Below, piece after piece: positions 7,839-35,839 of a stretch of DNA of 64,000 bases. Made by a program: the position numbers and the translations under genes. Source of the DNA: Bacillota bacterium. Lineage in GTDB: Bacteria; Bacillota_I; Bacilli_A; Erysipelotrichales; Erysipelotrichaceae. The notes beneath the pieces are model-generated. The model was not told where the DNA came from. It did not search any database and saw only the letters and a program-made list of their open reading frames with translations. The stretch covers positions 1 to 64,000 of the forward strand of contig JAHFCO010000003.1 of NCBI GenBank assembly GCA_023249475.1, written 5' to 3'. The first letter of the stretch is position 1; every line of letters starts with the position of its first letter.

Positions 7839-9239
7839 ATGTCTCTACGATTTGCCCGGTTTATCGGGAACAAGGCGTTCTATAAGAAAGTAATGGTGGT
7901 CGCCATTCCTTTGATGTTGCAGCAATTGATCACTTCATCCGTCAACCTGTTGGATAATCTCATGGTCGGTCAGTTGGGGGATGCTTCGCTCAGCGGGGTC
8001 GCCGTGACCAACCGGTTCTTCATGGTCGCGATTTTCGGGACGTTCGGAGTCCTGGGGGCGGCGTCGATCTACATCGCGCAGTTCTACGGTGCGAAGGACG
8101 AAGACCACATGAAGCAGTCGTTCCGTTATTCGATCCTAAGCGCCTACCTGGTCATGGCGCCCTTCGTCGTGCTGGGATTGCTGTTCCCTAAAGCCATCCT
8201 CGGATTCTTCACGCAGACGACGTCGATCCTGGACGAAGGCGTCATCTATATGCGGATCGCCGCGTTGACCTTCATCCCGATGGCGATGTCCATGGCCGTG
8301 GGCGGGGCGATGCGTTCGATCGGTCAGACCAAGATCCCGCTGTATGCCGGCGTCGCGTCCGTTTTGACGAACGCCGTCTTCAATTATATGTTGATCTTCG
8401 GGAAGTTCGGATTCCCTGCGCTCGGTGTCGCCGGTGCCGCGTGGGCGACCTTGATCGCCCGTCTGGTCGAAATGACGATCTTGTTGGTCGTCATGAACTA
8501 CAAGCATTTCCCGTTTTCCACCAGAATCGTCGATCTGTTCAAGGTTCAGAAGTATCTGATCAAGACCATCACCATCAAGGCGCTCCCGTTGACCACCAAT
8601 GAAATCTTCTGGTCAAGCGGGATGGCGACTTTATTCAAGTTCTACAGTACGCGCGGCGATGCCGTCCTGGTCGGTTTTCAGATCGCCGGGTCGACGGCGG
8701 ACCTCTTCTTCGTCCTTTTCGGCGGGATGGCGGCAGCCACCACCGTGATGATTTCCCAACCTTTGGGAGCCAACGAACTGGATGAGGCGCGAAGCAACGG
8801 ATACAAGATGCTGGGATTCAGTATCGTTCTGGCGATGTTCTTCGCGGTGTTGATGTTCGCGTCGAGTTTCTTCGTTCCTTATTTATATCGCGTCAGTGAA
8901 GAAAGCCGTTGGATCGCCTCCACGCAGCTTCGGATCATGTCGGTCATGTTTTGGATCTACATGGGGACGGCGGAGTGCTACTTCATACTGCGTGCCGGCG
9001 GGGATACCAAATCGACCCTCTTCATGGATTCCGTCTTCATGTGGACGGTGAACATCCCGGTTGTCGCGGCCGCGACGTATTTGACGAAGTGGCCGGTGTT
9101 CGCGGTCTACATCGCCGGACAGTCCACGGATTTCCTGAAACTGACCTTGGCCTATATCTTGATCCGTAAGGAAAAGTGGGTCAAAAACCTTACGATGGAG
9201 CGTCCGGACATCCTTGAAATCCACGAGGAAATCTCGTAA
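7839..9239 (+). CDS. MATE family multidrug/efflux transporter
   Basis: Integral membrane exporter of the MatE (multidrug and toxic compound extrusion) family, 466 residues with about 12 hydrophobic helices in two homologous halves. The N-terminal PLMLQQLITSSVNLLDNLMVGQLG block is characteristic, and the second half repeats the pattern near residues 245-330. MATE proteins exchange cationic drugs or metabolites for Na+ or H+. The start at 7839 follows GGGGG at 7827-7831 and agrees with the promoter. It shares its type, though not obvious close identity, with the minus-strand MATE gene at 23404. The substrate is unknown. Confidence 0.9.
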   Translation: MSLRFARFIGNKAFYKKVMVVAIPLMLQQLITSSVNLLDNLMVGQLGDASLSGVAVTNRFFMVAIFGTFGVLGAASIYIAQFYGAKDEDHMKQSFRYSILSAYLVMAPFVVLGLLFPKAILGFFTQTTSILDEGVIYMRIAALTFIPMAMSMAVGGAMRSIGQTKIPLYAGVASVLTNAVFNYMLIFGKFGFPALGVAGAAWATLIARLVEMTILLVVMNYKHFPFSTRIVDLFKVQKYLIKTITIKALPLTTNEIFWSSGMATLFKFYSTRGDAVLVGFQIAGSTADLFFVLFGGMAAATTVMISQPLGANELDEARSNGYKMLGFSIVLAMFFAVLMFASSFFVPYLYRVSEESRWIASTQLRIMSVMFWIYMGTAECYFILRAGGDTKSTLFMDSVFMWTVNIPVVAAATYLTKWPVFAVYIAGQSTDFLKLTLAYILIRKEKWVKNLTMERPDILEIHEEIS

Positions 9240-9257
9240 AAAAAGTGTATTCCGTAC

Positions 9258-9286
9258 TTGCCAAACGATAGGGTTTATGGTATATT
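9258..9286 (+). promoter_or_regulatory. Promoter of tRNA-Asn/tRNA-Glu
   Basis: TTGCCA (9258-9263), 17-base spacer, TATATT (9281-9286). The stretch around the -10 (ATGGTATATTTTAT) matches that of the tRNA-Ile promoter almost exactly. Confidence 0.85.
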
Positions 9287-9298
9287 TTATTAGCACTT

Positions 9299-9374
9299 GC
9301 CTGAATAGCTCAGTCGGTAGAGCAACCGGCTGTTAACCGGTTGGTCACAGGTTCGAGTCCTGTTTCAGGCGCCA
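9299..9374 (+). tRNA. tRNA-Asn (GTT)
   Basis: Acceptor GCCTGAA pairs with TTCAGGC; the anticodon loop CTGTTAA gives anticodon GTT; T-arm AGGTTCGAGTCCT; CCA encoded. Confidence 0.97.
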
Positions 9375-9375
9375 C

Positions 9376-9452
9376 GGCCCGTTGGAGAAACGGTTTAACT
9401 CACTTGCCTTTCACGCAAGCATCCACGGGTTCGAATCCCGTACGGGTCACCA
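9376..9452 (+). tRNA. tRNA-Glu (TTC)
   Basis: Acceptor GGCCCGT pairs with ACGGGTC (one G-T pair); the anticodon loop CTTTCAC gives anticodon TTC; T-arm GGGTTCGAATCCC; CCA encoded. It begins one base after the CCA of tRNA-Asn. Confidence 0.95.
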
Positions 9453-9465
9453 ATGTGCAATAAAG

Positions 9466-9486
9466 AGACGCTACGGCGTCTTTTTT
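9466..9486 (+). terminator. Terminator of the tRNA-Asn/Glu unit
   Basis: AGACGC (9466-9471) and GCGTCT (9476-9481) enclose a TACG loop and run into a series of T. Confidence 0.85.
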
Positions 9487-9522
9487 CATGTTTTGTCTGC
9501 TTTTCAAATGTACGATATAGGA

Positions 9523-9528
9523 TATAAT
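9523..9528 (+). promoter_or_regulatory. -10 element of the subtilisin gene, leaderless arrangement
   Basis: A perfect TATAAT ends six bases before the ATG at 9535, so the usual start point falls on or beside the A of that ATG. No good -35 lies 17 bases upstream (CTTTTC), and no ribosome binding site precedes the ATG. Confidence 0.55.
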
Positions 9529-9534
9529 GAGCAC

Positions 9535-12500
9535 ATGAGAACCTTCATCACCAGACTTCTTTCACTCCTCATCACCTTCGGCTTGTTGCTTGATCCGATG
9601 GGGGTTTTCGTCAACGCACAGGCGAAAGACAAGCCGATCGAGACCGTTTCGAATCCATCGGTAGTTCGCGAAGGCATGCAACGCTTGGTCGTTACACTGA
9701 CGGAGGATGCGAAGATCGGGGACTTCGCCGGTCAATTCAAAATACGGTCGCGGTATCCGCGTCAACATAAGTTGCTGATCGAAGTGGAAAACACGGAAGA
9801 AGCCATCGAGTCTTTGTCGTCGCGTCCGGACGTTGTTTCGGTGACCTATGACCACGACCTTGAACTTGCGTATATCCCGAGCGACACCTACTATGCTGGT
9901 TATCAATGGAACTTGAAGAACATGGGATTGGAATCCGTGTGGGGAATCACGGTCGGTGTTCCTTCGGTCGTCATCGCGGTCATCGATACCGGGGTGGGAC
10001 CCTATGGCGACTTCGGGACGATCGTCAACGGGGCCGATATGACGGGAACGACGGTTCTTGAGGATACCTATCCCGGCCAGTATTCATCCGATGGCGGGTA
10101 TCACGGGACGGCGGTCGCTTCGTTGATATCCTCCCAGATGAACGCCTATGGCATCGCAGGCATGGCACCGGGCGTCGCGATCATGCCGGTCAAGGTGTTT
10201 CCGACCGGCTCGGGTACGGCGTCGACGTTGACCGTGGCCGAGGGTGTCGTCTGGGCGGTCGACCATGGGGCGGATATCATCAATCTGAGTCTGGGCGGGG
10301 ATGATCCGCAAATCGAACTTGAAGAAGCGGTCGAGTATGCCAACGCCCACGGCGTCATGATGGTCGCGGCTTCCGGAAACGACGGATACACGGATCGGAT
10401 TTCCTATCCGGCACGCTATGACGGCGTCATTTCCGTCGGTTCATCCAACCAGGGGAATCAGGTTTCTTCGTTCTCGAACCGCGGTCCCGGATTGGACATC
10501 GTCGCTCCCGGGGAGGGCATCCTGCTTTATTATCGGGTGAACCAGCAGTTCAGTTGGTTTAACGGGACGTCCTTCGCGGCTCCCACCATCGCCGCCGCGC
10601 TCGGGCTTTTGGAGAGCGCGTATCCGACGTTGAGCGACGATGTGAAAGAACGTTTGCTTTACTCGAGCGCCGATGATTACGGTGCGATCGGGTATGATAT
10701 CGAATACGGATACGGTGTTCTGGATGTCGGGAGCTTGTTTCTACTTACGCAGACCCCGGGAGCCGTGGATGATAACGACTCCTTCGATGCGGCCGATCCA
10801 TTGGAACTGGATACATCCGTCCTGGGTCGTTTCGATCTGGTTCAAGACAAAGACATCTATACCCTCACGCTGGCAAGCGCACAACCGATCGACTTGGTTT
10901 TCGGGTCGGCCGGAAGCCTGGGGATGGATTGGCGACTCTATGGCTCGCAGTTGAATCTGATCTATGAGGAAAGCCTCGTTTTGGGTGACGGGGAAACCCA
11001 TCGTTCGCTTCAACTCGCCCAAGGGAAATACTATTTCGCGCTCACTGAAACAAATCGATCCCTGGTACCTTATCCTTATTCTTTCACGGTGCGATCCGCG
11101 GATTCGACCCCTCCGCTCATCACCATGCTTTCCAAAGGAAACGTGTTGGAAACCGGCATGACTAGCGATGAGGATGTCGTCGTGGAAATCACCGACGAAA
11201 CGGATGTCCGGATCCGGGTTACCCGGGATGATCTCGACATCGAATGGCCGGTCGACGGGCGGTTTATCCTCAATGGCGTCTATCGCATCGAGGTGTCGGA
11301 TCTGGTCGGGAATACATCGAGCGTTTCCTTCACCCTCTTGAAATCGGGGACCTACCCCGTGTCGTTCACCACGTTCACCGACCCGATGCCCTCGCTCGAC
11401 GTTGATTACGGCATGCCGATCGGCAGCCTGGCTGAACCGACCCGCATCGGGTATGTCTTCGAGGGATGGTTCACGGATTCATCCTACCTAACCCCGTGGT
11501 CGCTGGAAAGCGACCTGGTGGTCAACGCCATGACCTTGGTTGCGAAATGGTCGAAGATGCGTCTTACGGTAACGTTTGATTCACTGGGCGGGACGCTTGT
11601 GAGTCCGCAGACCGTGGATTACGGTTCATTGCCATATCGGCCTGCCAATCCGATCAAGACGGGCTATCTCTTTGAAAACTGGTATCATGATAATACCTAT
11701 ACGCGTTTGTTCGACTTTAACCAAGTGATCGAAAGCGGCACAACGATCGTGGCGAAATGGGTTCAGGCACCGACCTCCGTGTCCAATCTCAAGGTGACCT
11801 CGACCTCGGTCTCCACCTTGAGCCTGACCTGGACGCCGCAGAACGTCGTCGGGTACGAGATCTATCGGGCGACCGGTACAAGTACGAGTTATGCGAAAAT
11901 CGGCGAATCGACCCTTGCCTCGTACACGAGTACGGCATTGTCGGCCGGGGTTTCGTATTCTTATAAAGTCCGGGCGTTCACCCTTGTCAACACTCTTCGG
12001 GTCTATGGCGCGTTCAGTTTGATCGTAAACGGGAAACCGATTCCCTCGACCCCGGTCGTTTCCGGTGTTTCCGTGTCTTACAATTCCATAAAGATCAGCT
12101 GGCCGGCGGTGAGCGGTGCTTCCGCATATCAGATCTACCGTGCGACCAGTGCGACCGGTTCCTATGTTTATTGGACATCGACCACAAGCACGTCGTATAC
12201 CAATGCCTCCCTCACGACCAACGCGACCTATTACTATAAGGTCCGGGCATACCGCACGCTGACCGGCGGACGGCTTTACGGGAATTACTCGGCGGTCGTC
12301 GCGGTCAAGCCGATCCCGGCCACCCCGACGATGAGCACCTCGGTGCTATCCTATTCCAGTGTCAAAGCCACCTGGTCCGCGGTTTCAGGCGCATCGGGAT
12401 ATGAAGTCTATCGATCGTCATCGATGAGCGATCCCTTCGTGCTCGCGTACCGAACCACGGGGACGTCGTATACATTCGTCAACCAACCCTTCTACCAGGC

Positions 12501-13692
12501 GATCTTGCTGAAAGTCCGAGCCTATCGGACCATCAACAATGTCAAGATCTATGGCAACTTCACCAATGTGATGACCGTCACCCCCAATGTGACGGCGCCG
12601 ACCCTCAGCGCGACTTCGCTTGCATACGACACAATCAAACTCGGGTGGTCCAGCGTGGCCGGCGCCCAAGGGTATGCGCTCGAGACGCTCGACCCTTCGA
12701 CGAACCGGTTCGTAGAGATCGCGGATACCGCTTCGCCCGGCTTCACCCATCCCGATCGTCCGACCGGGATTACCCAAACCTACCGCATCCGTTCCTACCG
12801 TTGGTCGGGCGAGACGAAAGTCTATTCCGCGTACTCGTCAAACCTCCTTGCGAAAGCGATCCCCGCGACCGTAGGATCGACGAAGGCGACCTCGCAGAAC
12901 TATACCTCGATCACCATCCAGTTCGCACCGGTGGCGGGGGCCAGCGGCTACGAAATCTTCCGTTCCTCGTCATCGACCGGGACCTATCTCGGATTGACGA
13001 CGCTCACTGCGACCAGCTTCACGAATGTCTCCCTCAATTTCAACGTCTCCTATTATTATAAGGTGCGTGCGTTCACGACGACGCCCACGGGACGCGTCTA
13101 TGGGAATTTCTCCCCGGTCGTCTTTGCCAAGACCGCGTTGAACGTACCGGCGATGACTCTGAAATCCGAATCCGTTTCATCCATACGCATCGCTTGGCCA
13201 TCCGTCCCGGGAGCCACCGCCTATCAAATCTATCGCGCAAGTACGCTCAACGGAACCTACGCCTGGGTGACGACGATGACGTCTTCCTCCTATCTTAATA
13301 CAGGGCTAAGCACCGGGACGACCTACTACTATAAAGTACGGGCCTACCGCATCCAATCCGGCGTGACGTATTACGGTGGATATTCCACCGCGCAAGGGAT
13401 CAAGCCGATCCCGTCGACCCCCGTCCTCAATGCGAATGCGAACCTCGACCAAACGGTCAATGTCGCGTGGACCGCGGTAACAGGCGCAAGCGGTTATGAA
13501 CTCTCCGTCAGAATCGATGGGGAAAGCACGACGACCGTCAGTTCCTTCACCTCGACCCGGACGCAACTGAGCGGACTGCCCGTCAATGTGGGGATCGACA
13601 TCTCGATCCGATCCTACAAGATCGTCGATTCACTCAGGATTTACTCCGAACCCTCGGCTTGGGTCAACGTCATGATTCCCATGACATCCTAA
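9535..13692 (+). CDS. Secreted subtilisin-like (S8) protease with InlB-type and FN3 repeats
   Basis: Large secreted serine endopeptidase, 1385 residues. A signal peptide (about residues 1-30, cleavage near VNAQA) is followed by a prodomain-like region and an S8 catalytic domain with Asp151 (VIDTG), His190 (YHGTAVAS), oxyanion Asn282 (ASGND) and Ser346 (NGTSFAAP). After it come a PPC-like beta domain (about 410-510), a further beta domain, two InlB / Listeria-Bacteroides repeats (about 607-744, each ending in VAKW) and seven fibronectin III domains (about 745-1385) with the recurring YEIYRA and YYKVRAYR motifs. There is no LPXTG or membrane anchor, so it is probably released or bound non-covalently. 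An upstream in-frame extension would run into tRNA-Glu and is not used. Confidence 0.9.
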   Translation: MRTFITRLLSLLITFGLLLDPMGVFVNAQAKDKPIETVSNPSVVREGMQRLVVTLTEDAKIGDFAGQFKIRSRYPRQHKLLIEVENTEEAIESLSSRPDVVSVTYDHDLELAYIPSDTYYAGYQWNLKNMGLESVWGITVGVPSVVIAVIDTGVGPYGDFGTIVNGADMTGTTVLEDTYPGQYSSDGGYHGTAVASLISSQMNAYGIAGMAPGVAIMPVKVFPTGSGTASTLTVAEGVVWAVDHGADIINLSLGGDDPQIELEEAVEYANAHGVMMVAASGNDGYTDRISYPARYDGVISVGSSNQGNQVSSFSNRGPGLDIVAPGEGILLYYRVNQQFSWFNGTSFAAPTIAAALGLLESAYPTLSDDVKERLLYSSADDYGAIGYDIEYGYGVLDVGSLFLLTQTPGAVDDNDSFDAADPLELDTSVLGRFDLVQDKDIYTLTLASAQPIDLVFGSAGSLGMDWRLYGSQLNLIYEESLVLGDGETHRSLQLAQGKYYFALTETNRSLVPYPYSFTVRSADSTPPLITMLSKGNVLETGMTSDEDVVVEITDETDVRIRVTRDDLDIEWPVDGRFILNGVYRIEVSDLVGNTSSVSFTLLKSGTYPVSFTTFTDPMPSLDVDYGMPIGSLAEPTRIGYVFEGWFTDSSYLTPWSLESDLVVNAMTLVAKWSKMRLTVTFDSLGGTLVSPQTVDYGSLPYRPANPIKTGYLFENWYHDNTYTRLFDFNQVIESGTTIVAKWVQAPTSVSNLKVTSTSVSTLSLTWTPQNVVGYEIYRATGTSTSYAKIGESTLASYTSTALSAGVSYSYKVRAFTLVNTLRVYGAFSLIVNGKPIPSTPVVSGVSVSYNSIKISWPAVSGASAYQIYRATSATGSYVYWTSTTSTSYTNASLTTNATYYYKVRAYRTLTGGRLYGNYSAVVAVKPIPATPTMSTSVLSYSSVKATWSAVSGASGYEVYRSSSMSDPFVLAYRTTGTSYTFVNQPFYQAILLKVRAYRTINNVKIYGNFTNVMTVTPNVTAPTLSATSLAYDTIKLGWSSVAGAQGYALETLDPSTNRFVEIADTASPGFTHPDRPTGITQTYRIRSYRWSGETKVYSAYSSNLLAKAIPATVGSTKATSQNYTSITIQFAPVAGASGYEIFRSSSSTGTYLGLTTLTATSFTNVSLNFNVSYYYKVRAFTTTPTGRVYGNFSPVVFAKTALNVPAMTLKSESVSSIRIAWPSVPGATAYQIYRASTLNGTYAWVTTMTSSSYLNTGLSTGTTYYYKVRAYRIQSGVTYYGGYSTAQGIKPIPSTPVLNANANLDQTVNVAWTAVTGASGYELSVRIDGESTTTVSSFTSTRTQLSGLPVNVGIDISIRSYKIVDSLRIYSEPSAWVNVMIPMTS

Positions 13693-13726
13693 GCCTTTTC
13701 TTTCGCGATAAAACCATGAGGATGAC

Positions 13727-13755
13727 TTGCATTTGTGGGAAACGTACGATATAAT
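13727..13755 (+). promoter_or_regulatory. Promoter of tRNA-Lys
   Basis: TTGCAT (13727-13732), 17-base spacer, perfect TATAAT (13750-13755). Confidence 0.88.
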
Positions 13756-13771
13756 CATTAAGCATCGTATT

Positions 13772-13847
13772 GACCTGTTAGCTCAGTTGGTAGAGCAACT
13801 GACTCTTAATCAGTGGGTCTAGGGTTCGAGTCCCTAACGGGTCACCA
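13772..13847 (+). tRNA. tRNA-Lys (CTT)
   Basis: Acceptor GACCTGT pairs with ACGGGTC (with a G-T pair); the anticodon loop CTCTTAA gives anticodon CTT; T-arm AGGGTTCGAGTCCCT; CCA encoded. Confidence 0.96.
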
Positions 13848-13857
13848 TTGAAAATCA

Positions 13858-13884
13858 AACCTGTCCGAAAGGCGGGTTTTTTTT
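13858..13884 (+). terminator. Terminator of tRNA-Lys
   Basis: AACCTGTC (13858-13865) pairs with GGCGGGTT (13871-13878) through a CGAAA loop, followed by a T run. Confidence 0.85.
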
Positions 13885-13971
13885 CGTTTCATCGGATCAT
13901 GTCGGTCATCACGGAGCGAATCGCAGCGGATGAAGTGAATGCGTTTGCATTTATGAAAACAAATGATAATT

Positions 13972-13986
13972 TATTTTCAGAAATAA
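13972..13986 (+). promoter_or_regulatory. CodY-box-like site upstream of the liv promoter
   Basis: TATTTTCAGAAATAA matches the published CodY motif AATTTTCWGAAAATT at 11 of 15 positions, with the core TTTTCAGAAA intact. It lies just upstream of the -35. CodY repression of branched-chain amino acid uptake is well known in Bacillota, but whether this organism has CodY is not visible here. Confidence 0.35.
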
Positions 13987-13999
13987 TGAAAGAATATGA

Positions 14000-14028
14000 T
14001 TGCATTTCACCATTCTTTCATATATAAT
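14000..14028 (+). promoter_or_regulatory. Promoter of the liv operon
   Basis: TTGCAT (14000-14005), 17-base spacer, TATAAT (14023-14028), with AT-rich DNA upstream that could act as an UP element. Confidence 0.88.
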
Positions 14029-14058
14029 CGAGACATATTACCGAGAGGAGGGTATTCT

Positions 14059-15213
14059 ATGAAGAGAATTCTTGTGTTAGTGGCTACGGCCTTATTGGTT
14101 CTATCCGGACTTACCGCATGTACGTCCACGGACAAAGGTACCATTAAGATCGGGGTCAACGTTGAGCTTACCGGGGAAGCCGCCGTCTACGGTCAACCCG
14201 AGAAGAAAGCGATTGAATTGGCAGTGAAGGAAATCAACGATGCCGGAGGGATTTTAGGCAAACAGGTCGAGGCGATCTATTACGATACCAAGACCGACGG
14301 CGCGGAATCCACCAGCAACGTCACCAAGCTTGCCACCGAAGATAAAGTCGTCGCCATCATCGGCGCCGCGATCTCCGGAACCACCATGGCCGCCGCTCCG
14401 GTCGCCAACCAGTATCAAGTACCGATGATCACCCCGTCCGGCTCCAATGCGAAGGTCACCAACGACGGAACCACGGTCTACCCGTTTGTCTACAGAGCGT
14501 GCTTCATCGACCCGTTCCAAGGCGTCGTCATCGCGAACTTCTCCTCCACCGAATTGGGAGCCACGAAAGCGGCTGTCATCGGATCCAGTTCTTCCGATTA
14601 CGCTAAAGACTTGGCGACGATTTTCGCGGACCAATTCGAAAAGAATGGCGGTACCGTCGTCGCTGAAGAATACTACACCGATACCGATACCGACTTCAAC
14701 GCGATTTTGACGAAACTTCAAAACGCCGGTGAATTCGATGTCCTGTTTATCGCCGACTACGCCGTACGCGCCGGTTTGATCATCGGTCAAGCCCGTACCG
14801 CGGGCATCACGGTTCCGATCGTCGGTCCCGACGGCTTTGAATCCCCCGACTTGGTCGCATTGGCCGGCGGAGCGGACAAAGTCAACGATGTCTATTTCTC
14901 CACCCACTTCTCCGCGTTGAGCGAAGACCAAGCCGTTAAAGATTTCATCGCTGCCTACACCGCATCCGCCGGCGAAGCGCCGAGCGCCTTGAGCGCCCTT
15001 GCGTACGACACCGTCTACATGCTGAAACAAGCGATCGAAGATGCCGATTCCACCGACCCCGTCAAAGTCAACACCGCGCTTGAAGCGATCAAAGACTTCA
15101 AAGGGATCACCGGAACCATCAACTTCGACGAATGGCATAATCCGATCAAATCGGCGATCATCGTCGAATTGGTCAATGGCGAACAAGCCAGCGCGACTGT
15201 AGTTAATCCTTAA
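14059..15213 (+). CDS. livJ: Branched-chain amino acid ABC transporter, substrate-binding lipoprotein
   Basis: Extracellular ligand-binding component for leucine/isoleucine/valine-type substrates, 384 residues. The lipobox LTAC places the lipidated Cys at residue 21. The mature protein starts with the family pattern IKIGVNVELTGEAAVYG and continues with a Peripla_BP_6 fold. The ATG at 14059 follows GAGGAGGG; longer in-frame extensions have no site. It is the first gene of livJHMGF, separated from livH by a 13-base-pair hairpin. Binding specificity could extend to other amino acids, amides or urea. Confidence 0.92.
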   Translation: MKRILVLVATALLVLSGLTACTSTDKGTIKIGVNVELTGEAAVYGQPEKKAIELAVKEINDAGGILGKQVEAIYYDTKTDGAESTSNVTKLATEDKVVAIIGAAISGTTMAAAPVANQYQVPMITPSGSNAKVTNDGTTVYPFVYRACFIDPFQGVVIANFSSTELGATKAAVIGSSSSDYAKDLATIFADQFEKNGGTVVAEEYYTDTDTDFNAILTKLQNAGEFDVLFIADYAVRAGLIIGQARTAGITVPIVGPDGFESPDLVALAGGADKVNDVYFSTHFSALSEDQAVKDFIAAYTASAGEAPSALSALAYDTVYMLKQAIEDADSTDPVKVNTALEAIKDFKGITGTINFDEWHNPIKSAIIVELVNGEQASATVVNP

Positions 15214-28449: not shown

Positions 28450-28482
28450 AAAACACATCCAGTTTTTTGGATGTGTTTTAAT
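28450..28482. terminator. Bidirectional terminator between the lipoprotein and TetR genes
   Basis: AAAACACATCCA (28450-28461) and TGGATGTGTTTT (28468-28479) form a perfect 12-base-pair stem with a T-rich loop. It overlaps the last codon and stop of the tetR-type gene. Confidence 0.88.
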
Positions 28483-29086
28483 TTTCATGCCTATGAATGA
28501 ACATCGGGATGCTCTCCGCAAAGAAAGTGATGAATGTATCCCTAAACTTCAAATCATCGAATTTCAAGACACCTAAGGAATATTGAATCGCCAATCCATC
28601 CAGGGCAGCGACCAATATCGCCGCTAAGTTTTTCTGATAGTCAGCGTTTTCTACTCCAAAGGCATAGAAATACATATCAGCTACTTTTCGTATGATTTCT
28701 TCGTAATCCAATTTATACTTCTCCTTAATTTTCCCGCCCTTGGAAATCGCATACGCGGCAAGCAGGATCATCAACCGCTGTTCGACTTCTTTCGACATTC
28801 TCTCCTGGACTTTCCGACTGATTTCCTCCAACATCTCACGATTGGATTTCAGTTGAAGATTCTCATCCCGTTCCGAAAGTTTATGCACGAAATACGCGGC
28901 TTCCTTGACCGCGTCATAAAACAGATCGTCCTTGTTTTTATAGTGGTGATAGATCGCCCCGGTCGTTAGGCCGGCTTGGGTGGCGATCTCACGCATGCTT
29001 GCATCATCGAATCCCTTGACGGCGAAGACATTCAACGCCGCGTCGAGGATGTGTTGTTTTCGTTTATTGATCGGTTCGTTGGTCAT
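28478..29086 (-). CDS. TetR/AcrR family transcriptional regulator
   Basis: Repressor-type protein of 202 residues. The N-terminal DNA-binding domain has the full TetR pattern: ILDAALNVFAVKGFDDASMREIA followed by GLTTGAIYHHYKNKDDLF. The C-terminal ligand domain is helical and not conserved. The start is at 29086, after GAGGGAGGAA; a longer in-frame start would read into the promoter region. It is divergent from hypB, and a palindrome lies in the hypB promoter, so it is the likely repressor of the hypB-hypA cluster. The ligand is unknown. Confidence 0.9.
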   Translation of the reverse strand: MTNEPINKRKQHILDAALNVFAVKGFDDASMREIATQAGLTTGAIYHHYKNKDDLFYDAVKEAAYFVHKLSERDENLQLKSNREMLEEISRKVQERMSKEVEQRLMILLAAYAISKGGKIKEKYKLDYEEIIRKVADMYFYAFGVENADYQKNLAAILVAALDGLAIQYSLGVLKFDDLKFRDTFITFFAESIPMFIHRHEN

Positions 29087-29176
29087 TGAGTTTCCTCCCT
29101 CTTTTAGTTTAGCATCACTTTTCGAAAATACTTGCTTTTTTTGTTTAAATTCTTGATACATTCTTCACGAACAACC

Positions 29177-29205
29177 TTGAAACATAACAATCGTTATGTT
29201 AAACT
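29177..29205 (+). promoter_or_regulatory. hypB promoter with embedded TetR-type operator
   Basis: TTGAAA (29177-29182), 17-base spacer, TAAACT (29200-29205). The palindrome AACATAAC-AATC-GTTATGTT at 29181-29200 fills the spacer almost exactly, so a bound repressor would block RNA polymerase. Confidence 0.75.
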
Positions 29206-29246
29206 ATTCACATTGGTGCACAAGTACAACACGGAAAGAGGTAACG

Positions 29247-29918
29247 ATGTCGGAATTTCGGATTCTCGAGATCAAGGAAAGCATCTTCGGGAACAACAAC
29301 AAACAAGCGGATCTTTTACGCAAAGAATTGAAGGGGAAAGGCATTTTTCTATTGAATCTCATGGCGTCGCCGGGGGCGGGGAAAACGACGACGTTGACGC
29401 AGACCATCAACCGGCTCAAGGAAGAACTGAAGGTCGGCGTGATGGAAGCGGACATCGATTCCGATGTCGACGCGGTCACGATCGCCAAGACCGGGGTCAA
29501 GGTCATCCAACTCCATACCGGGGGGATGTGTCATCTCGATGCGGACATGACCCGACAGGGCATGGACGGACTGGGCGTGGAGGAGTTGGATCTGGTGGTT
29601 TTGGAGAATGTGGGGAATCTGGTTTGTCCGGCGGAGTTCGATACCGGTTCCAGCAAGAACGCGATGATCCTGAGCGTTCCCGAAGGGGACGACAAGCCGT
29701 TGAAGTATCCTCTGATGTTCTCGATCTGCGACGTCCTCTTGATTAACAAGATCGATGTGATGAGCGTCTTCGACTTCGATCTGGAAGTTTGTAAGGAAAG
29801 AGCGTTGAAATTGAATCCGAACATCAAAATCATCCCGATCTCGGCACGTACCGGCGAAGGGGTCGATGAATTCGCACAGTGGCTCAAGGATGAAGTCAAG
29901 AAATGGAAGGAACAATGA
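29247..29918 (+). CDS. hypB: Nickel incorporation GTPase HypB
   Basis: GTPase of 223 residues that delivers nickel to metalloenzymes together with HypA. P-loop SPGAGKTT at 41-48, the Mg-contact motif EADIDSDVDA at 68-77, the nickel/zinc ligands Cys95 and His96 in GGMCHLDADM, and NKID for guanine recognition. The N-terminal His-rich or CxxCGC extension found in some HypB proteins is missing. The ATG at 29247 follows AAGAGGT. It is the first gene of the cluster controlled by the divergent TetR, with the next start one base after its stop. Confidence 0.93.
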   Translation: MSEFRILEIKESIFGNNNKQADLLRKELKGKGIFLLNLMASPGAGKTTTLTQTINRLKEELKVGVMEADIDSDVDAVTIAKTGVKVIQLHTGGMCHLDADMTRQGMDGLGVEELDLVVLENVGNLVCPAEFDTGSSKNAMILSVPEGDDKPLKYPLMFSICDVLLINKIDVMSVFDFDLEVCKERALKLNPNIKIIPISARTGEGVDEFAQWLKDEVKKWKEQ

Positions 29919-29919
29919 A

Positions 29920-32613
29920 ATGACTAACCAAAACGTCAAACTCAAGGTATTGGAATTCGCGAATAAAGTCAGCAATAAAAAGATGGGGTCAAAGGGTGCG
30001 ATCACCGCGGCCGATCCCCGCTATTACATCATGGAGCCGGTGGTGACGGACGAAATGGCCGAAGTCGCCTTGGTGATGGAGTTCAGAAAGCCCAAGAGCG
30101 CCGAGGAATTGGCGAAACTGTGCGGCAAGCCGACCGAACTCGTCGAGAAACTGGCATGGGAGTTGTCCATGGCCGGGGTTTGTTTCGTCAACAAGAAAGA
30201 CGGCGTCGATAAATATTGGTATGACACCTGGGTGCCGGGCATCATGGAAATGATGGTCAACAATAAGGAAAACGTCGCGAAATACCCGCAGATCGCGCGT
30301 GCCTTTGAAGAATACGGACGTGTCGTCGGTCCGATGAGCGTCGGGAAGTTCCCGATCGGGGTCGGCGTCATGCGTGTCATTCCGATCGAAACCGCGATCG
30401 CCGGGGAAACCCGTCGGGCCTCCTACGAAGAAATCTCCAAATATCTCAACGACGCCCATCTCTTCTCGGTGTCGGATTGTTCCTGCCGGACTTCGCGCGA
30501 AGCGATGGGGGAAGGGTGCGGCCACTTGAAAGAAGACATGTGCATCCAGATGGACCATGCGGCGGAATACTATATCCGGACCGGCAGAGGGCGCGAAATC
30601 ACGCGTGAAGAAGCCTTCGAAATCATCACCCGCGCGGAAGAAAACGGCTTGATGCATCAGATCCCCAACCTTGACGGAACCGGGAAGACGCATGCCATCT
30701 GCAACTGTTGCGGATGTTCGTGCTATGCCATGCGGATCGCACAGATGTTCCAGAACTCGGACATGGTCCGCTCGAACTACGTCGCCCATGTGGATGCGGA
30801 AAAATGCGTCGCATGCGGCGAATGCGTCGAGAATTGCCCGACCAACGCGGCGAAACTCGGCACCAAGCTCTATCAAATCAACCCGGTCGTCGTCAAACCG
30901 GCGGATACCCCCCGCGATACGAAGTGGGGACCGGAAAAGTTCAACGTCGACTACCGTACCAACCGGAAGAACGTCGTCGACGGCGGGACCAGTCCCTGTA
31001 AGACCGAATGCCCGGCCCACATCGCGATCCAGGGCTACATCAAACTGGCGTCGCAGGGGAAATACACCGAAGCCTTGGAACTGATCAAACATGAGAACCC
31101 TTTCCCGGCGATCTGCGGACGGATCTGTCCGCATAAATGCGAATCCGCCTGTTCGCGCTGTGAGATCGACAAGGCCGTGGCCATCGATGAAATCAAGAAG
31201 TTCATCGCCGACCAGGATTTGAACCTCAAAAACCGTTATGTCCCGAAACTACGCCACAACTACGGCAAGAAGATCGCCGTCGTCGGCGCCGGTCCGGCCG
31301 GCTTGTCCTGTGCCTATTACCTTGCGATCGACGGATACAACGTCACCGTCTTTGAGAAACAAGAAGCGCTCGGAGGGATGATGACCCTGGGCATTCCCAA
31401 CTATCGTCTTGAGAAAGACGTGGTCAATGCGGAAATCGACATCCTGAAAGAACTCGGCGTCGAGTTCAAGACCGGGATCGAAGTCGGCAAGGATGTAACC
31501 TTGGATGAATTGAGAAACCAGGACTACAAGGCGTTCTACCTCGCGATCGGTGCACAGAAGGGCCGTAAGCTGGGGATCGAAGGGGAAGACCACCGCGATG
31601 TGATGAGCGGGGTCGACTTCCTGCGCGACGTCAACCTGAACAAGGCGAACAAACTCTCGGGGAATGTCGTGGTCATCGGGGGAGGCAACGTCGCGATCGA
31701 CGTCGCCCGCACCGCGGTGCGCATGGAAGCGAAGCATGTCGGCATGTATTGCCTGGAAAGCCGTACCCAAATGCCGGCCTTGGAAGAAGAGATCGAAGAA
31801 GCCTTGGATGAAGCCATCCAGATTCATAATTCATGGGGTCCCAAGCGCATCGTCGTCGAAAACAACCAGGTCGTCGGCGTCGAATTCAAGAAGTGCGTTT
31901 CCGTCTTCGATGAAAACAAGCGCTTCAATCCGGTGTTCGATGAGAACGACATCCTGTTCGTCGAAGCGAGCACGGTCCTTGTCTCCGTCGGTCAAGCCAT
32001 CGAGTGGGGGAACTTGCTTGAAAACAGCGACGCGAAATTCAACCCCAACAAGACGCTGATCGCCGATGCCTTCACCTATCAGACCAACCAGTCCGACGTC
32101 TTCACCGGCGGGGACTGCTATACCGGTCCGCGTTTCGCCATCGATGCGATCGCGGCGGGGAAACAAGGCGCCATCTCGATCCACCGCTATGTCCAACCCG
32201 GACAAAGTCTGGTCAACGGACGCGACCGCAGGGAATACGTGGCGATCGACAAAGAGAACTTCGATTTCCAAGGCTATGACCGTATTCCCCGGGAAAGTGT
32301 GAAGACACATTACAAGACTTCCGGAAAAGAAGCGTTCAGCGACGCCCGTCCGACGTTCAGCGAAGCGCAGATGAAGAAAGAGACGTCCAGATGTCTCGGA
32401 TGCGGTGCGACGGTGGTCGACGAATACATGTGCGTCGGGTGCGGACAATGTACGACCAAGTGCAAGTTCGATGCGATCTCCCTGGTCCGGACCTACAATT
32501 CCGGCGGGGCTTCCTACGAAGAGTTGAAACCCTTGGTCGTGAAGAACATCATCAAACGTCAAGGACGGATCCTGGTGAAGAACGTGAAGAACGCGTTCGC
32601 CCGAGAAGAGTAA
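29920..32613 (+). CDS. Multi-cluster iron-sulfur flavoprotein oxidoreductase (GltD-like core)
   Basis: An 897-residue redox protein. Residues 50-100 resemble a winged helix. A Cys-rich module follows: C187-x-C189, C200, C208 and C261-x-C-C-x-C-x-C268. A ferredoxin motif CVACGECVENC covers 296-306. From about 360 begins a GltD/DPYD-type N-terminal iron-sulfur domain (CKTECPAH, CGRICPHKCESAC), then a GltD-like FAD domain (VGAGPAG near 456) and a second dinucleotide site (IGGGNVAIDVA near 587). A C-terminal ferredoxin-like domain has CLGCG and CVGCGQCTTKC at 825-853. It should shuttle electrons between NAD(P)H and an unknown partner. Its position between hypB and hypA ties it to nickel handling, a combination I do not recognise. 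AGGAGG is not obvious; translation is probably coupled to hypB. Confidence 0.85.
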   Translation: MTNQNVKLKVLEFANKVSNKKMGSKGAITAADPRYYIMEPVVTDEMAEVALVMEFRKPKSAEELAKLCGKPTELVEKLAWELSMAGVCFVNKKDGVDKYWYDTWVPGIMEMMVNNKENVAKYPQIARAFEEYGRVVGPMSVGKFPIGVGVMRVIPIETAIAGETRRASYEEISKYLNDAHLFSVSDCSCRTSREAMGEGCGHLKEDMCIQMDHAAEYYIRTGRGREITREEAFEIITRAEENGLMHQIPNLDGTGKTHAICNCCGCSCYAMRIAQMFQNSDMVRSNYVAHVDAEKCVACGECVENCPTNAAKLGTKLYQINPVVVKPADTPRDTKWGPEKFNVDYRTNRKNVVDGGTSPCKTECPAHIAIQGYIKLASQGKYTEALELIKHENPFPAICGRICPHKCESACSRCEIDKAVAIDEIKKFIADQDLNLKNRYVPKLRHNYGKKIAVVGAGPAGLSCAYYLAIDGYNVTVFEKQEALGGMMTLGIPNYRLEKDVVNAEIDILKELGVEFKTGIEVGKDVTLDELRNQDYKAFYLAIGAQKGRKLGIEGEDHRDVMSGVDFLRDVNLNKANKLSGNVVVIGGGNVAIDVARTAVRMEAKHVGMYCLESRTQMPALEEEIEEALDEAIQIHNSWGPKRIVVENNQVVGVEFKKCVSVFDENKRFNPVFDENDILFVEASTVLVSVGQAIEWGNLLENSDAKFNPNKTLIADAFTYQTNQSDVFTGGDCYTGPRFAIDAIAAGKQGAISIHRYVQPGQSLVNGRDRREYVAIDKENFDFQGYDRIPRESVKTHYKTSGKEAFSDARPTFSEAQMKKETSRCLGCGATVVDEYMCVGCGQCTTKCKFDAISLVRTYNSGGASYEELKPLVVKNIIKRQGRILVKNVKNAFAREE

Positions 32614-32623
32614 GGAAAAACGA

Positions 32624-32965
32624 ATGCATGAGTTAAGTGTCGTGTTCGAGGTCATCAAGACCGTCGAACGTGTCGTGCTTGAGAACCGATTGAGCGAAGT
32701 GGAAACCATCGTCCTGCAGGTCGGGGAAATCTCCACGATGATCCCCAAATATCTTGAAGAATGTTTCCCGGCGGCGATCGACGGGACGCGCTTTGAGAAG
32801 ACCAAGCTTGAAATCGAGATCGTCACGGCCATCGGGCATTGCCGGGACTGCGGTCTGACGTTCAAGATCGTCGAGAACCAAGGGAATTGCCCATCCTGTG
32901 TCAAAAAGAATTGGGATCTGGTGAGCGGTAAAGAATTTCTGATCAAAGAAATCGTCGCGTATTGA
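32624..32965 (+). CDS. hypA: Nickel metallochaperone HypA
   Basis: Small nickel and zinc protein of 113 residues. The N-terminal MHE supplies the nickel ligand His2, and the zinc site consists of Cys73, Cys76, Cys89 and Cys92 (CRDC and CPSC). Overall length and the LQVGEISTM segment fit HypA/HybF. HypA docks to HypB for nickel transfer. It lies ten bases after the flavoprotein gene and ahead of a metal transporter. None of hypC, hypD, hypE, hypF or hydrogenase genes occurs in the window. Confidence 0.93.
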   Translation: MHELSVVFEVIKTVERVVLENRLSEVETIVLQVGEISTMIPKYLEECFPAAIDGTRFEKTKLEIEIVTAIGHCRDCGLTFKIVENQGNCPSCVKKNWDLVSGKEFLIKEIVAY

Positions 32966-32981
32966 AAGTCGAGGGGGATCC

Positions 32982-33683
32982 ATGAACGATGTCTATTATC
33001 TATTAACGACCGCCGTGTTCATCGGTACGGTCCATACCGTGATCGGGGTCGACCACTACCTGCCGTTTGTCGCCTTGTCGAAAGCCAACCGGTGGACGAT
33101 GAAGAGAACGATGGTCGTCGTCTTCGTATGCGGGATCGGACATGTCCTGAGCTCCGTCCTGCTCGGATTCGCCGGCATCGCATTGAGTGCGAGTCTGTCT
33201 TCCTTGGTCGACGTGGAAAGCATCCGCGCCTCCATGGCGACCTACTTCCTCATCGGATTCGGACTTCTTTACACCCTATGGGCGCTACGCAACCTGTATA
33301 AAAACAAGAAACACACCCATGAGATCGATGGTCACGCCCTCGTGCATGACCATAACGAAACCGCCAGCGTCGAAGATCATCTGAAGGCGCAGAAGAAGTC
33401 CCAAACGACGATCTGGGGATTGTTCATCCTCTTCGTCCTGGGACCCTGCGAACCCTTGATTCCGATCCTGATGTACCCCGCGGCGACGCACAACGTGGCC
33501 GCCCTGATCCTGGTGACCACAGCCTTCGCCCTCTGTACGATTTCCACGATGTTGGCGATGACCTATGTCTTATTGAAAGGCATGGATGTCGTGAAGTTGT
33601 CCGGGCTCCATAAATACTCGCACGCGCTGGCCGGATCCGCCGTCGCCTTGTGCGGAATCCTCATGCTTACCTTAGGGATTTAA
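32982..33683 (+). CDS. UreH/NicO-like nickel transporter
   Basis: Membrane protein of 233 residues with about six helices. The first helix carries HTVIGVDHYLPF, which fits the HxxxxDH metal motif of nickel-cobalt and UreH-type permeases. A central cytoplasmic loop is His-rich (HTHEIDGHALVHDHN, residues about 109-123), suited to metal binding. The motif GPCEPLIPIL in the second half is typical of the UreH/SfsA-like group. It directly follows hypA, so nickel uptake or export for HypA/HypB is the simplest reading. A cytochrome-maturation DsbD-like role is a less likely alternative. Confidence 0.82.
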   Translation: MNDVYYLLTTAVFIGTVHTVIGVDHYLPFVALSKANRWTMKRTMVVVFVCGIGHVLSSVLLGFAGIALSASLSSLVDVESIRASMATYFLIGFGLLYTLWALRNLYKNKKHTHEIDGHALVHDHNETASVEDHLKAQKKSQTTIWGLFILFVLGPCEPLIPILMYPAATHNVAALILVTTAFALCTISTMLAMTYVLLKGMDVVKLSGLHKYSHALAGSAVALCGILMLTLGI

Positions 33684-33721
33684 ATTCGTTTGATCGAAAA
33701 GATCACAAAAGGGGAAAGAAA

Positions 33722-34714
33722 ATGTTTACATTCAACACCGCCGAAGGGGCGACTTTACTCTCAGCGTTATCGATGTGGTTCGTGGTCTTCATTTCTTTGT
33801 TTATTTTCAATGAATTCGCCCGTCGCTGGAAACTTGCGGGGTTCTTCAGCTTCGTCATCCTTCCGGTCTTCCTGACCGTCCTCTGGATGACCGCGCTTAA
33901 GGAAACGACCTACACCGACTGGTTCCACTTGGCGAAAGTGTACTCCGCGACCGCCGGTTGCATCGGGTTCTGGTGCATCCGCCATGTCGTCAAGAAGGAT
34001 AAGAAAACCGGGGAAGTGCTTTGGCGTTTGGCGAACAATAAAATCGCCTTGTGCTTCCCTCCTCTGATCCTCGCCGTCAACATCCTGGAAGCCGTCATCC
34101 GCGATTTCGAAGTCGGGTCGATGTATTGGTTGGTGAATTCCGGGGCGATCGAAGGCGAAGTCGTCGGCGTGCTGGGCGGACCATGGAACTACATGAATGC
34201 CATCGCGGGGATTTTGAACATCATCACGATCACCGGCTGGTTCGGCATCGTCTTGCGTAAACAAACCAAGGGCGACGCAAGCAAAGACATGCTTTGGCCG
34301 GACATGCTGTGGTTTTGGATCCTGGCCTACGATGTCTGGAATTTCGTCTACACCTACAACTGCATCCCGACGCATTCCTGGTATGCCGGTCTGGCCCTTC
34401 TGATCGCGCCGACCCTCTGCGCCTTCACCCTCGGCAAAGGCGCTTGGCTACAACACCGTGCCCAGACCCTTGCGATCTGGTGCATGTTCGCCCAAACATT
34501 CCCGGCTTTTCAGGACCAGGGAAGATTCATGGTCAGTTCGACCTACAATCCGACGATCTATACGGCCTTGGGCGCTTTGTCCCTTGGCATCAACGTCGCC
34601 GTGTTCGGATTCATGATGTACCGTGTCGTGAAGACGAAACGCAATCCGTATCTTGGGGAATTGTATAGCGACATGAAGGAATATCGCGAAATCAAATCGC
34701 TTGCTGAAAACTAA
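33722..34714 (+). CDS. Polytopic membrane protein of unknown function (DUF5692-like)
   Basis: Integral membrane protein of 330 residues with eight or nine hydrophobic helices and unusually many Trp and Tyr residues (for example MLWPDMLWFWILAYDVWNF and TYNCIPTHSW). Conserved-looking His, Cys and Asp within helices could bind a metal or cofactor, but no known motif is evident. I believe it belongs to the family called DUF5692, with limited certainty. GGGGAAAG precedes the ATG at 33722. It is the last gene of the hypB cluster before a strong terminator. Confidence 0.65.
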   Translation: MFTFNTAEGATLLSALSMWFVVFISLFIFNEFARRWKLAGFFSFVILPVFLTVLWMTALKETTYTDWFHLAKVYSATAGCIGFWCIRHVVKKDKKTGEVLWRLANNKIALCFPPLILAVNILEAVIRDFEVGSMYWLVNSGAIEGEVVGVLGGPWNYMNAIAGILNIITITGWFGIVLRKQTKGDASKDMLWPDMLWFWILAYDVWNFVYTYNCIPTHSWYAGLALLIAPTLCAFTLGKGAWLQHRAQTLAIWCMFAQTFPAFQDQGRFMVSSTYNPTIYTALGALSLGINVAVFGFMMYRVVKTKRNPYLGELYSDMKEYREIKSLAEN

Positions 34715-34717
34715 GCG

Positions 34718-34744
34718 AAAAGGAATCCGTTGCGGATTCCTTTT
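34718..34744 (+). terminator. Terminator of the hypB cluster
   Basis: AAAAGGAATCCG (34718-34729) and CGGATTCCTTTT (34733-34744), 12 base pairs with a three-base loop. Confidence 0.88.
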
Positions 34745-34813
34745 CTTATGAAAACCCGTTTGTCCCGGATATGATACAATAGGGACGAACATTCAAATGA
34801 CCAAGGAGAACCG

Positions 34814-35839
34814 ATGAAGATAGAACGAACGCCCGAGATCGAAGCGTTCTTCAAACGATGCATGAACCGGCTTCGCAATGAAGAAAGCAACGATTTCCTG
34901 GGGATGCATGTGACACCGAGGAACGAGAAGAAGATTCAGAAGAAGATGAAACAAGCGGGGATCCCCGAGTTTTCAGGCGACGAAGCGACCTGGCCATCCT
35001 TGTTCATCAGCACCCAGGAATACCTTCAACGCCCCTACAACACCCAGATCCGACTCGATGCGATCCAAAGCGCCGGGTTCAAGTTCACACGTGAAACGCT
35101 GAGCGCCAACGAACTGTTCAACGTTTGCGCCATCCACCCCGATCCGCAACGGGAACTCAACGATTGGATGACCTTACGCGCCCTGGATCAACCCTACGAC
35201 GCGGTGTTCCTCTGGCAAGACGACGAAGTCTGGATGATGGATTCCCCCGCCGAAGCGAACACGAACGACCCCTATGCCAAGAAAGCCCACGGGAAAGTCG
35301 TCACCTTCGGTTTGGGGATCGGATACTTCGTCTACATGGCGATGCTGAATCCGGAGGTGACATCGATCACGGTCGTCGAAAAATCACAAGCCGTCATCGA
35401 ACTGTTCCAAACCTTCATCCAGCCGCAGTTCCCGACCACGATCCCATTGACGATCGTGGAAGGCGATGCCTTGGATTACTTCAACGAATCCTTTCTCAAC
35501 GGGTTCGATTCTGTCTATGTGGATATCTGGAAGTCCAACGACGACGGCTTGATCTGGGTCGAGAAGCTCTTGGAGCGATATCTTCCCCCTCTGGAAAAAG
35601 TGGATTTCTGGATCGAGTCCTCCATTTTCGAAGCCATGCACGCCCTTGTCTTCATGTATTTCCATGAACTGGCCCAGGGTCGCAAAGCCCATCACAACCA
35701 TCCGGTCTATCGGCGGATAATGAAGAAAATCGCGAAACATTTCGATTCGATCGACATCACGGTGAAGGATGTCGATACGATAAAAGATGCGATGTATGAC
35801 CCGCAGACGCTTCGCACGATCCTTTCCACGCGTATTTAA
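34814..35839 (+). CDS. SAM-dependent methyltransferase-like protein (spermidine-synthase-type fold)
   Basis: Cytoplasmic protein of 341 residues. The first 150 residues form an uncharacterised N-terminal region. A Rossmann-type methyltransferase domain follows, with motif I VVTFGLGIGYFVYMA near 165, the acidic residue of motif II in ITVVEKS near 190, and FDSVYVDIWKSNDDG near 233 at the motif IV position, as in polyamine synthases. The domain may therefore bind SAM or decarboxylated SAM. AAGGAGAA precedes the ATG, and an extended -10 TGATACAAT lies at 34772-34780. It stands alone between two terminated units. The substrate is unknown. Confidence 0.65.
   Translation: MKIERTPEIEAFFKRCMNRLRNEESNDFLGMHVTPRNEKKIQKKMKQAGIPEFSGDEATWPSLFISTQEYLQRPYNTQIRLDAIQSAGFKFTRETLSANELFNVCAIHPDPQRELNDWMTLRALDQPYDAVFLWQDDEVWMMDSPAEANTNDPYAKKAHGKVVTFGLGIGYFVYMAMLNPEVTSITVVEKSQAVIELFQTFIQPQFPTTIPLTIVEGDALDYFNESFLNGFDSVYVDIWKSNDDGLIWVEKLLERYLPPLEKVDFWIESSIFEAMHALVFMYFHELAQGRKAHHNHPVYRRIMKKIAKHFDSIDITVKDVDTIKDAMYDPQTLRTILSTRI

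Follow-up and report, generated by a model that had tools for sequence, protein, structure and literature searches.

Why does a gut-type anaerobe in whose genome no hydrogenase or urease gene was found keep the nickel chaperones HypA and HypB? The question is raised by a 64,000-nucleotide stretch (the window) from a Bacillota bacterium of the Erysipelotrichaceae, contig JAHFCO010000003.1, in which positions 28478-34714 hold a tetR gene on the minus strand, divergent from a five-gene operon encoding HypB, a large iron-sulfur (Fe-S) flavoprotein, HypA and two membrane proteins, one UreH-like and the other DUF5692. We think it reasonably probable that this operon produces and matures a reductase of unfunctionalized (conjugated) C=C bonds that draws on NAD(P)H, depends on HypAB and resembles IsrA, described from Acetobacterium wieringae ISORED-2 as a putative isoprene reductase (Kronen 2023, PMC10134865), and that unsaturated fatty acids are likely substrates of such reductases in many lineages. 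The flavoprotein family and its link to HypAB are already known, if uncharacterized; new here are the linkage to a fatty-acid isomerase, a probable dedicated operator and the genome-wide absence of other known HypAB clients, with a LarA-family gene present.

The likeliest client of HypA and HypB

Judged from its sequence, the flavoprotein is a clade 9 homologue of IsrA, an assignment based on its length, six-cysteine site V, DPD domain II, ferredoxin clusters and FAD/NAD(P)H domain, the flavoprotein tree being a fast tree that holds homologues only. Its recognizable parts are Fer4, DPD domain II, Pyr_redox_2 and C-terminal cysteine cluster motifs; a GltD/NfnB-type FAD/NAD(P)H unit forms the core, at about residues 357-760, and full-length homologues align over nearly the entire 897 amino acids, including an N-terminal domain of ~270-285 residues. 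That domain holds six invariant cysteines (187, 189, 208, 261, 263 and 268) together with His246, as seen in alignments of 32 and 68 homologues; N- and C-terminal cysteines of the protein are invariant as well. The six form two CxC motifs (C187xC189 and C261xC263) plus C208 and C268, and match cluster V of IsrA.

The resemblance extends to the isr operon, which likewise combines a ~900-residue protein of the same domain chain, with two CxC motifs in its six-cysteine site and canonical [4Fe-4S] clusters, with hypA and hypB in a genome lacking NiFe hydrogenase. The window operon differs in having one hypA instead of two and no isr-type 4Fe-4S protein, which places it outside the strict isr definition, and in its additional tetR, UreH-like and DUF5692 genes. 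Its hypA, hypB, tetR and DUF5692 neighbors are exactly those published for 988 clade 9 homologues, near which hypA was found in 73%, hypB in 56%, DUF5692 in 40% and tetR in 21% (PMC10134865), whereas the UreH-like permease was seen beside the unit only in the window genome and two close relatives. For the cluster of A. wieringae, a 2025 announcement uses the name "putative diene reductase cluster" (PMC12509576). A sequence-only reading of this DNA had not recognized the gene combination, which had in fact been described in 2023 (PMC10134865), and had overlooked the likely reaction, the reduction of conjugated C=C bonds; the arrangement that it laid out (a divergent tetR, hypB, an 897-residue flavoprotein, hypA, a transporter and DUF5692) was borne out by profile matches.

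Searches of the whole window genome (2.09 Mb in 60 contigs, 96% complete) found no match to the NiFe hydrogenase large subunit (PF00374), HypD, the urease alpha subunit or carbon monoxide dehydrogenase (CODH)/prismane proteins; on PF00374 and HypD, no NiFe hydrogenase maturation system was recognized, HypC, HypE and HypF not being searched. These results extend the earlier remark that hydrogenase genes are missing from the cluster to the entire genome, rule out a hydrogenase or urease remnant, and leave CODH without a match as a HypAB client. The unit also occurs in other genomes lacking NiFe hydrogenase and urease, a check that the sequence-only reading had proposed: G021, G008, G072, G024, G019 and G100 carry it with no match to NiFe hydrogenase, HypD, urease, CODH or LarA. 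That reading would have been undone by a cluster always found beside hypCDEF and hydrogenase structural genes, but among 26 flavoprotein genomes the NiFe large subunit was matched once (over 69 positions, in G051), HypD in four and urease in one.

Gene association points the same way. Scanning named genomes yielded 80 flavoprotein loci, spread over Bacillota, Spirochaetes, Chloroflexi, Proteobacteria and others. Among the 74 loci, from named genomes and relatives, with at least 2.5 kb on either side, tblastn within 6 kb placed HypA at 68, HypB at 55 and DUF5692 at 33, a recount that supersedes earlier ones in which some hypA genes behind opposite-strand open reading frames (ORFs), the window's own included, had been overlooked. 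Across 146 relatives, HypA above its family cut-off is present in 26 of 27 flavoprotein genomes and 10 of 119 others (p=1.4e-19), and all eight genomes with DUF5692 carry the flavoprotein (p=5e-7), although the compared genomes are related and these Fisher p-values therefore overstate independence. G001 and G073 share the full gene order, and the hypB-flavoprotein-hypA core is found in several phyla, so the arrangement is more than chance. Given this association and the failure to find the genes of other clients, the flavoprotein is the likeliest client of HypA and HypB, as the sequence-only reading had suggested and as was proposed for IsrA itself (PMC10134865).

The window genome also holds a second copy of the flavoprotein gene (L032, G000:C10:30000-49900, 9067-11775), 62% identical, flanked by two DUF5692-like genes and with a divergent AraC-type regulator.

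Isomerases and the probable substrate

In three relatives (L040, L043 and L057) a PAI-type homologue lies inside the operon, its sole strong solved match being 2b9w (E=3.9e-114), the structure of PAI, a polyunsaturated fatty acid (linoleate) isomerase from Cutibacterium acnes. PAI converts linoleate to a conjugated diene, the kind of compound that IsrA presumably reduces; the two enzymes would fit together as consecutive steps of biohydrogenation. More distant PAI subtypes, each with 2b9w as its best solved match (E=2.8e-62 and 3.6e-15), adjoin the unit in Alkaliphilus, Anaeromonas, Anaerosalibacter, Proteiniclasticum, Fusibacter and others. A PAI-family gene thus lies in or next to the unit at 11 loci of relatives, spread over about four separate regions of the fast tree, and all eight of the 146 relatives with the isomerase also carry the flavoprotein (p=5e-7). 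Oleate hydratase adjoins the unit in G100 and G107 and, according to the IsrA paper, also in A. woodii and A. fimetarium (PMC10134865); over all relatives its co-occurrence does not reach significance (9 of the 27 flavoprotein genomes against 22 of 120 others, p=0.12). With PAI present in the operons of several relatives, unsaturated fatty acids are probably the substrates most often used in nature, and isoprene the specialized case in Acetobacterium.

We advance a more specific version of this proposal only tentatively: that the unit formed by HypAB and the flavoprotein is the missing, nickel-dependent reductase of conjugated linoleate, or unsaturated fatty acids, in anaerobic gut and rumen bacteria and represents a new class of nickel enzyme, for which PAI makes the substrate in some lineages and DUF5692 serves as a membrane partner for lipid access or membrane coupling. 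Linoleate goes unmentioned in the IsrA paper (PMC10134865), and literature searches of partial coverage found no paper that connects PAI-type isomerases with IsrA-type reductases or gives a gene for the conjugated-linoleate reductase step; as far as these searches reach, the linkage of PAI to the operon is new. DUF5692 was also considered as an alternative isomerase that simply replaces PAI, and set aside: the two sets are disjoint in the 146 relatives, yet they share operons in L069, L071, L090, L092, L093, L095 and L099.

Beside the PAI-like gene in those same loci (among them L069:5520-6587 and L071:5620-6684) is a gene for a 330-355-residue protein with transposase-like helix-turn-helix domains (PF13518 and PF13565), perhaps a domesticated transposase acting as a regulator.

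A rather unlikely alternative is that the operon encodes a diene reductase whose substrate is not a fatty acid at all, being instead a terpene, isoprene, butadiene, a carotenoid-like molecule or another small unsaturated compound, with the isomerases as lineage-specific additions. IsrA itself responds to isoprene and is the protein most strongly induced by it (PMC10134865); A. wieringae Y and N reduce both isoprene and butadiene. The window genome itself has neither PAI nor oleate hydratase. In G021, the nearest relative beyond the two clusters closest to the window's, hypA is followed by a CrtI/carotenoid-isomerase-like flavoprotein (TIGR02730, 174 bits, under cut-off) and a 2Fe-2S flavin reductase, then by two DUF5692-like genes (L035:12408-15103), neighbors that suggest a different unsaturated substrate in that organism. 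What tells against a general non-fatty-acid substrate is that the PAI association is repeated and phylogenetically separate, and that some loci have oleate hydratase.

The proposed metal site and electron path

In the mechanism we propose, electrons from NAD(P)H would enter at the FAD of the GltD-like core, pass along the [4Fe-4S] clusters and arrive at the six-cysteine metal site of the N-terminal domain, where the double bond of the substrate would be reduced; nickel would be supplied by the UreH-like permease and brought to that site by the GTPase HypB together with HypA, and a PAI-type isomerase would, in several relatives, convert linoleate to the conjugated diene on which the reductase acts. 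HypB matches TIGR00073 at 243.9 bits (cut-off 121.2). HypA, single-copy in the window genome, scores 103.5 bits against PF01155 (cut-off 28.9) and 72.2 against TIGR00100, short of the cut-off of 88.1, and is therefore divergent. For the N-terminal ~285 residues of the flavoprotein, neither sequence nor fold revealed a solved relative: sequence matches of the N-terminal part to solved structures are confined to its ferredoxin portion, and a fair model (predicted local distance difference test, pLDDT, 81.4) gave no solved match at E<=0.001 and a weak winged-helix likeness that we discarded as a clue.

It is improbable, in our judgment, that HypA and HypB load a metal other than nickel or act in cluster assembly, with the six-cysteine site forming a pure, double-cubane-like Fe-S cluster. 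The divergence of HypA would fit such a role, and the IsrA authors saw in site V a likeness both to double-cubane clusters and to the nickel-bearing A-cluster of acetyl-CoA synthase (PMC10134865), but HypB keeps its CH...C nickel site, HypA keeps its MHE start, and in some lineages the unit comes with a UreH-like permease or with CbiMQO. The sequence-only reading had described an HxxxxDH transporter with a His-rich loop; the loop is there, whereas the motif is HTVIGVDH (H-X5-D-H). The protein matches PF13386 alone, lacks the marks of NiCoT transporters (no HX4DH signature, no PF03824 match) and has no solved relative, and among the relatives only G001 and G073 have its orthologue next to the unit; it is a putative nickel permease. 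In C. nigeriense (L066), CbiM-CbiQ-CbiO, an importer of the nickel/cobalt type, lies directly 3' of the unit. Both transporters support nickel, while cobalt would fit their sequences too. Two different tandem hypB genes stand by the flavoprotein gene in L039, L045, L046, L047, L048, L053, L054 and L055, one of which may have a special role.

Very improbable is a flavoprotein that works without an organic substrate, as an NAD(P)H:ferredoxin or electron-bifurcating (Nfn-like) enzyme. Its core does match NfnA/NfnI alpha and formate dehydrogenase-associated GltD-like subunits, but NfnB/GltD-type flavoproteins share only that core and do not match the N-terminal six-cysteine domain; against an Nfn-like role stand this extra domain of ~285 residues with its conserved metal site, the absence of a partner flavoprotein gene from the operon and the induction of IsrA by isoprene (PMC10134865). 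We give least credence of all to the idea that HypA and HypB mature another nickel enzyme and that the flavoprotein is merely linked to them: the window genome has a LarA-family gene (G000:C33), but LarA is matured by its own proteins LarB, LarC and LarE, was not found in 7 of 12 unit-bearing genomes (an eighth, G073, has a match under cut-off), and HypA accompanies the flavoprotein across phyla.

Besides the kinship of the compared genomes, several observations weigh against a HypAB-dependent reductase of unsaturated fatty acids. The LarA-family protein is another possible nickel protein in the window genome; the second flavoprotein copy has no adjoining hypA or hypB, though a single HypAB pair could serve both; 64 of the 74 loci are without PAI; and the window genome has neither PAI nor oleate hydratase to point to its own substrate. 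The published work found reports no metal content or activity for any clade 9 protein.

The operon and its probable regulation

A perfect palindrome, AACATAAC-N4-GTTATGTT, lies within the hypB promoter (Table 1). G001 and G073, where tetR orthologues occupy the matching place, share both arms exactly, and in each of these three genomes it is the sole site at two or fewer mismatches. It is probably a dedicated TetR switch, through which the operon would be repressed at a single operator until an unsaturated substrate is present; the idea, raised in the sequence-only reading, of a self-contained system with a repressor of its own accords with this layout. Comparison with solved relatives offered no clue to the TetR ligand, as matches mostly center on the DNA-binding domain and none is specific. 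In about 24 loci a GntR-type regulator adjoins the unit in place of the window's TetR (e.g. L066:7266-7970 and L045:12893-13615).

The tight packing noted earlier holds, with a single base between hypB and the flavoprotein gene; the flanking terminators that were also claimed correspond to 13-pair hairpins on both sides, although hairpins overall are not clearly more numerous than chance would give. The starts of tetR (29086, chosen with the help of relatives and a GGAGG site), hypB (29247), the flavoprotein gene (29920) and DUF5692 (33722) are likely ones, based on relatives and ribosome sites. The DUF5692 protein matches its family strongly (E=6.5e-115, 383.9 bits against a gathering cut-off of 27), and its model (pLDDT 88.7, 8-9 helices) has no solved fold match.

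Table 1. Features of the locus, in window coordinates
Feature	Position	Strand	Description
Terminator-like hairpin	28450..28479	-	13 pairs; at tetR end
TetR-family regulator	28478..29086	-	202 aa; PF00440; listed ORF extends to 29161
Probable operator palindrome	29181..29200	.	AACATAAC-AATC-GTTATGTT; between hypB -35 (TTGAAA) and -10 (TAAACT)
hypB, nickel GTPase/metallochaperone	29247..29918	+	223 aa; TIGR00073; P-loop ASPGAGKTT and CH...C nickel site
IsrA-type multi-[4Fe-4S] FAD/NAD(P)H oxidoreductase	29920..32613	+	897 aa from ATG 29920
hypA, nickel chaperone	32624..32965	+	113 aa; PF01155; MHE start, two CxxC
UreH/DsbD_2-type membrane protein	32982..33683	+	PF13386; HX5DH motif and His-rich loop
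DUF5692 membrane protein	33722..34714	+	PF18948; about 8-9 transmembrane helices
Terminator-like hairpin	34717..34745	+	13 pairs; 3' of operon

Downstream of the operon, at 34814-35839, is a gene for a 341-residue protein without a Pfam match that is present likewise in G001 and G073. Elsewhere (L059, G101:C1:1847000-1866900, 8578-15208) the flavoprotein gene is interrupted by ~4 kb with two related, mobile-element-like long ORFs of 646 and 437 residues, the N-terminal flavoprotein piece lying at 14837-15208.

The makeup of fats in milk, meat and the gut is shaped by anaerobes that hydrogenate linoleic and vaccenic acid. The repeated linkage of PAI, an IsrA-type reductase and nickel chaperones names a concrete candidate for the hydrogenation of conjugated linoleate in anaerobes. 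Should the reductase prove to contain nickel, it would add a class of nickel enzyme and would explain many of the HypA and HypB genes carried by genomes that have neither hydrogenase nor urease.

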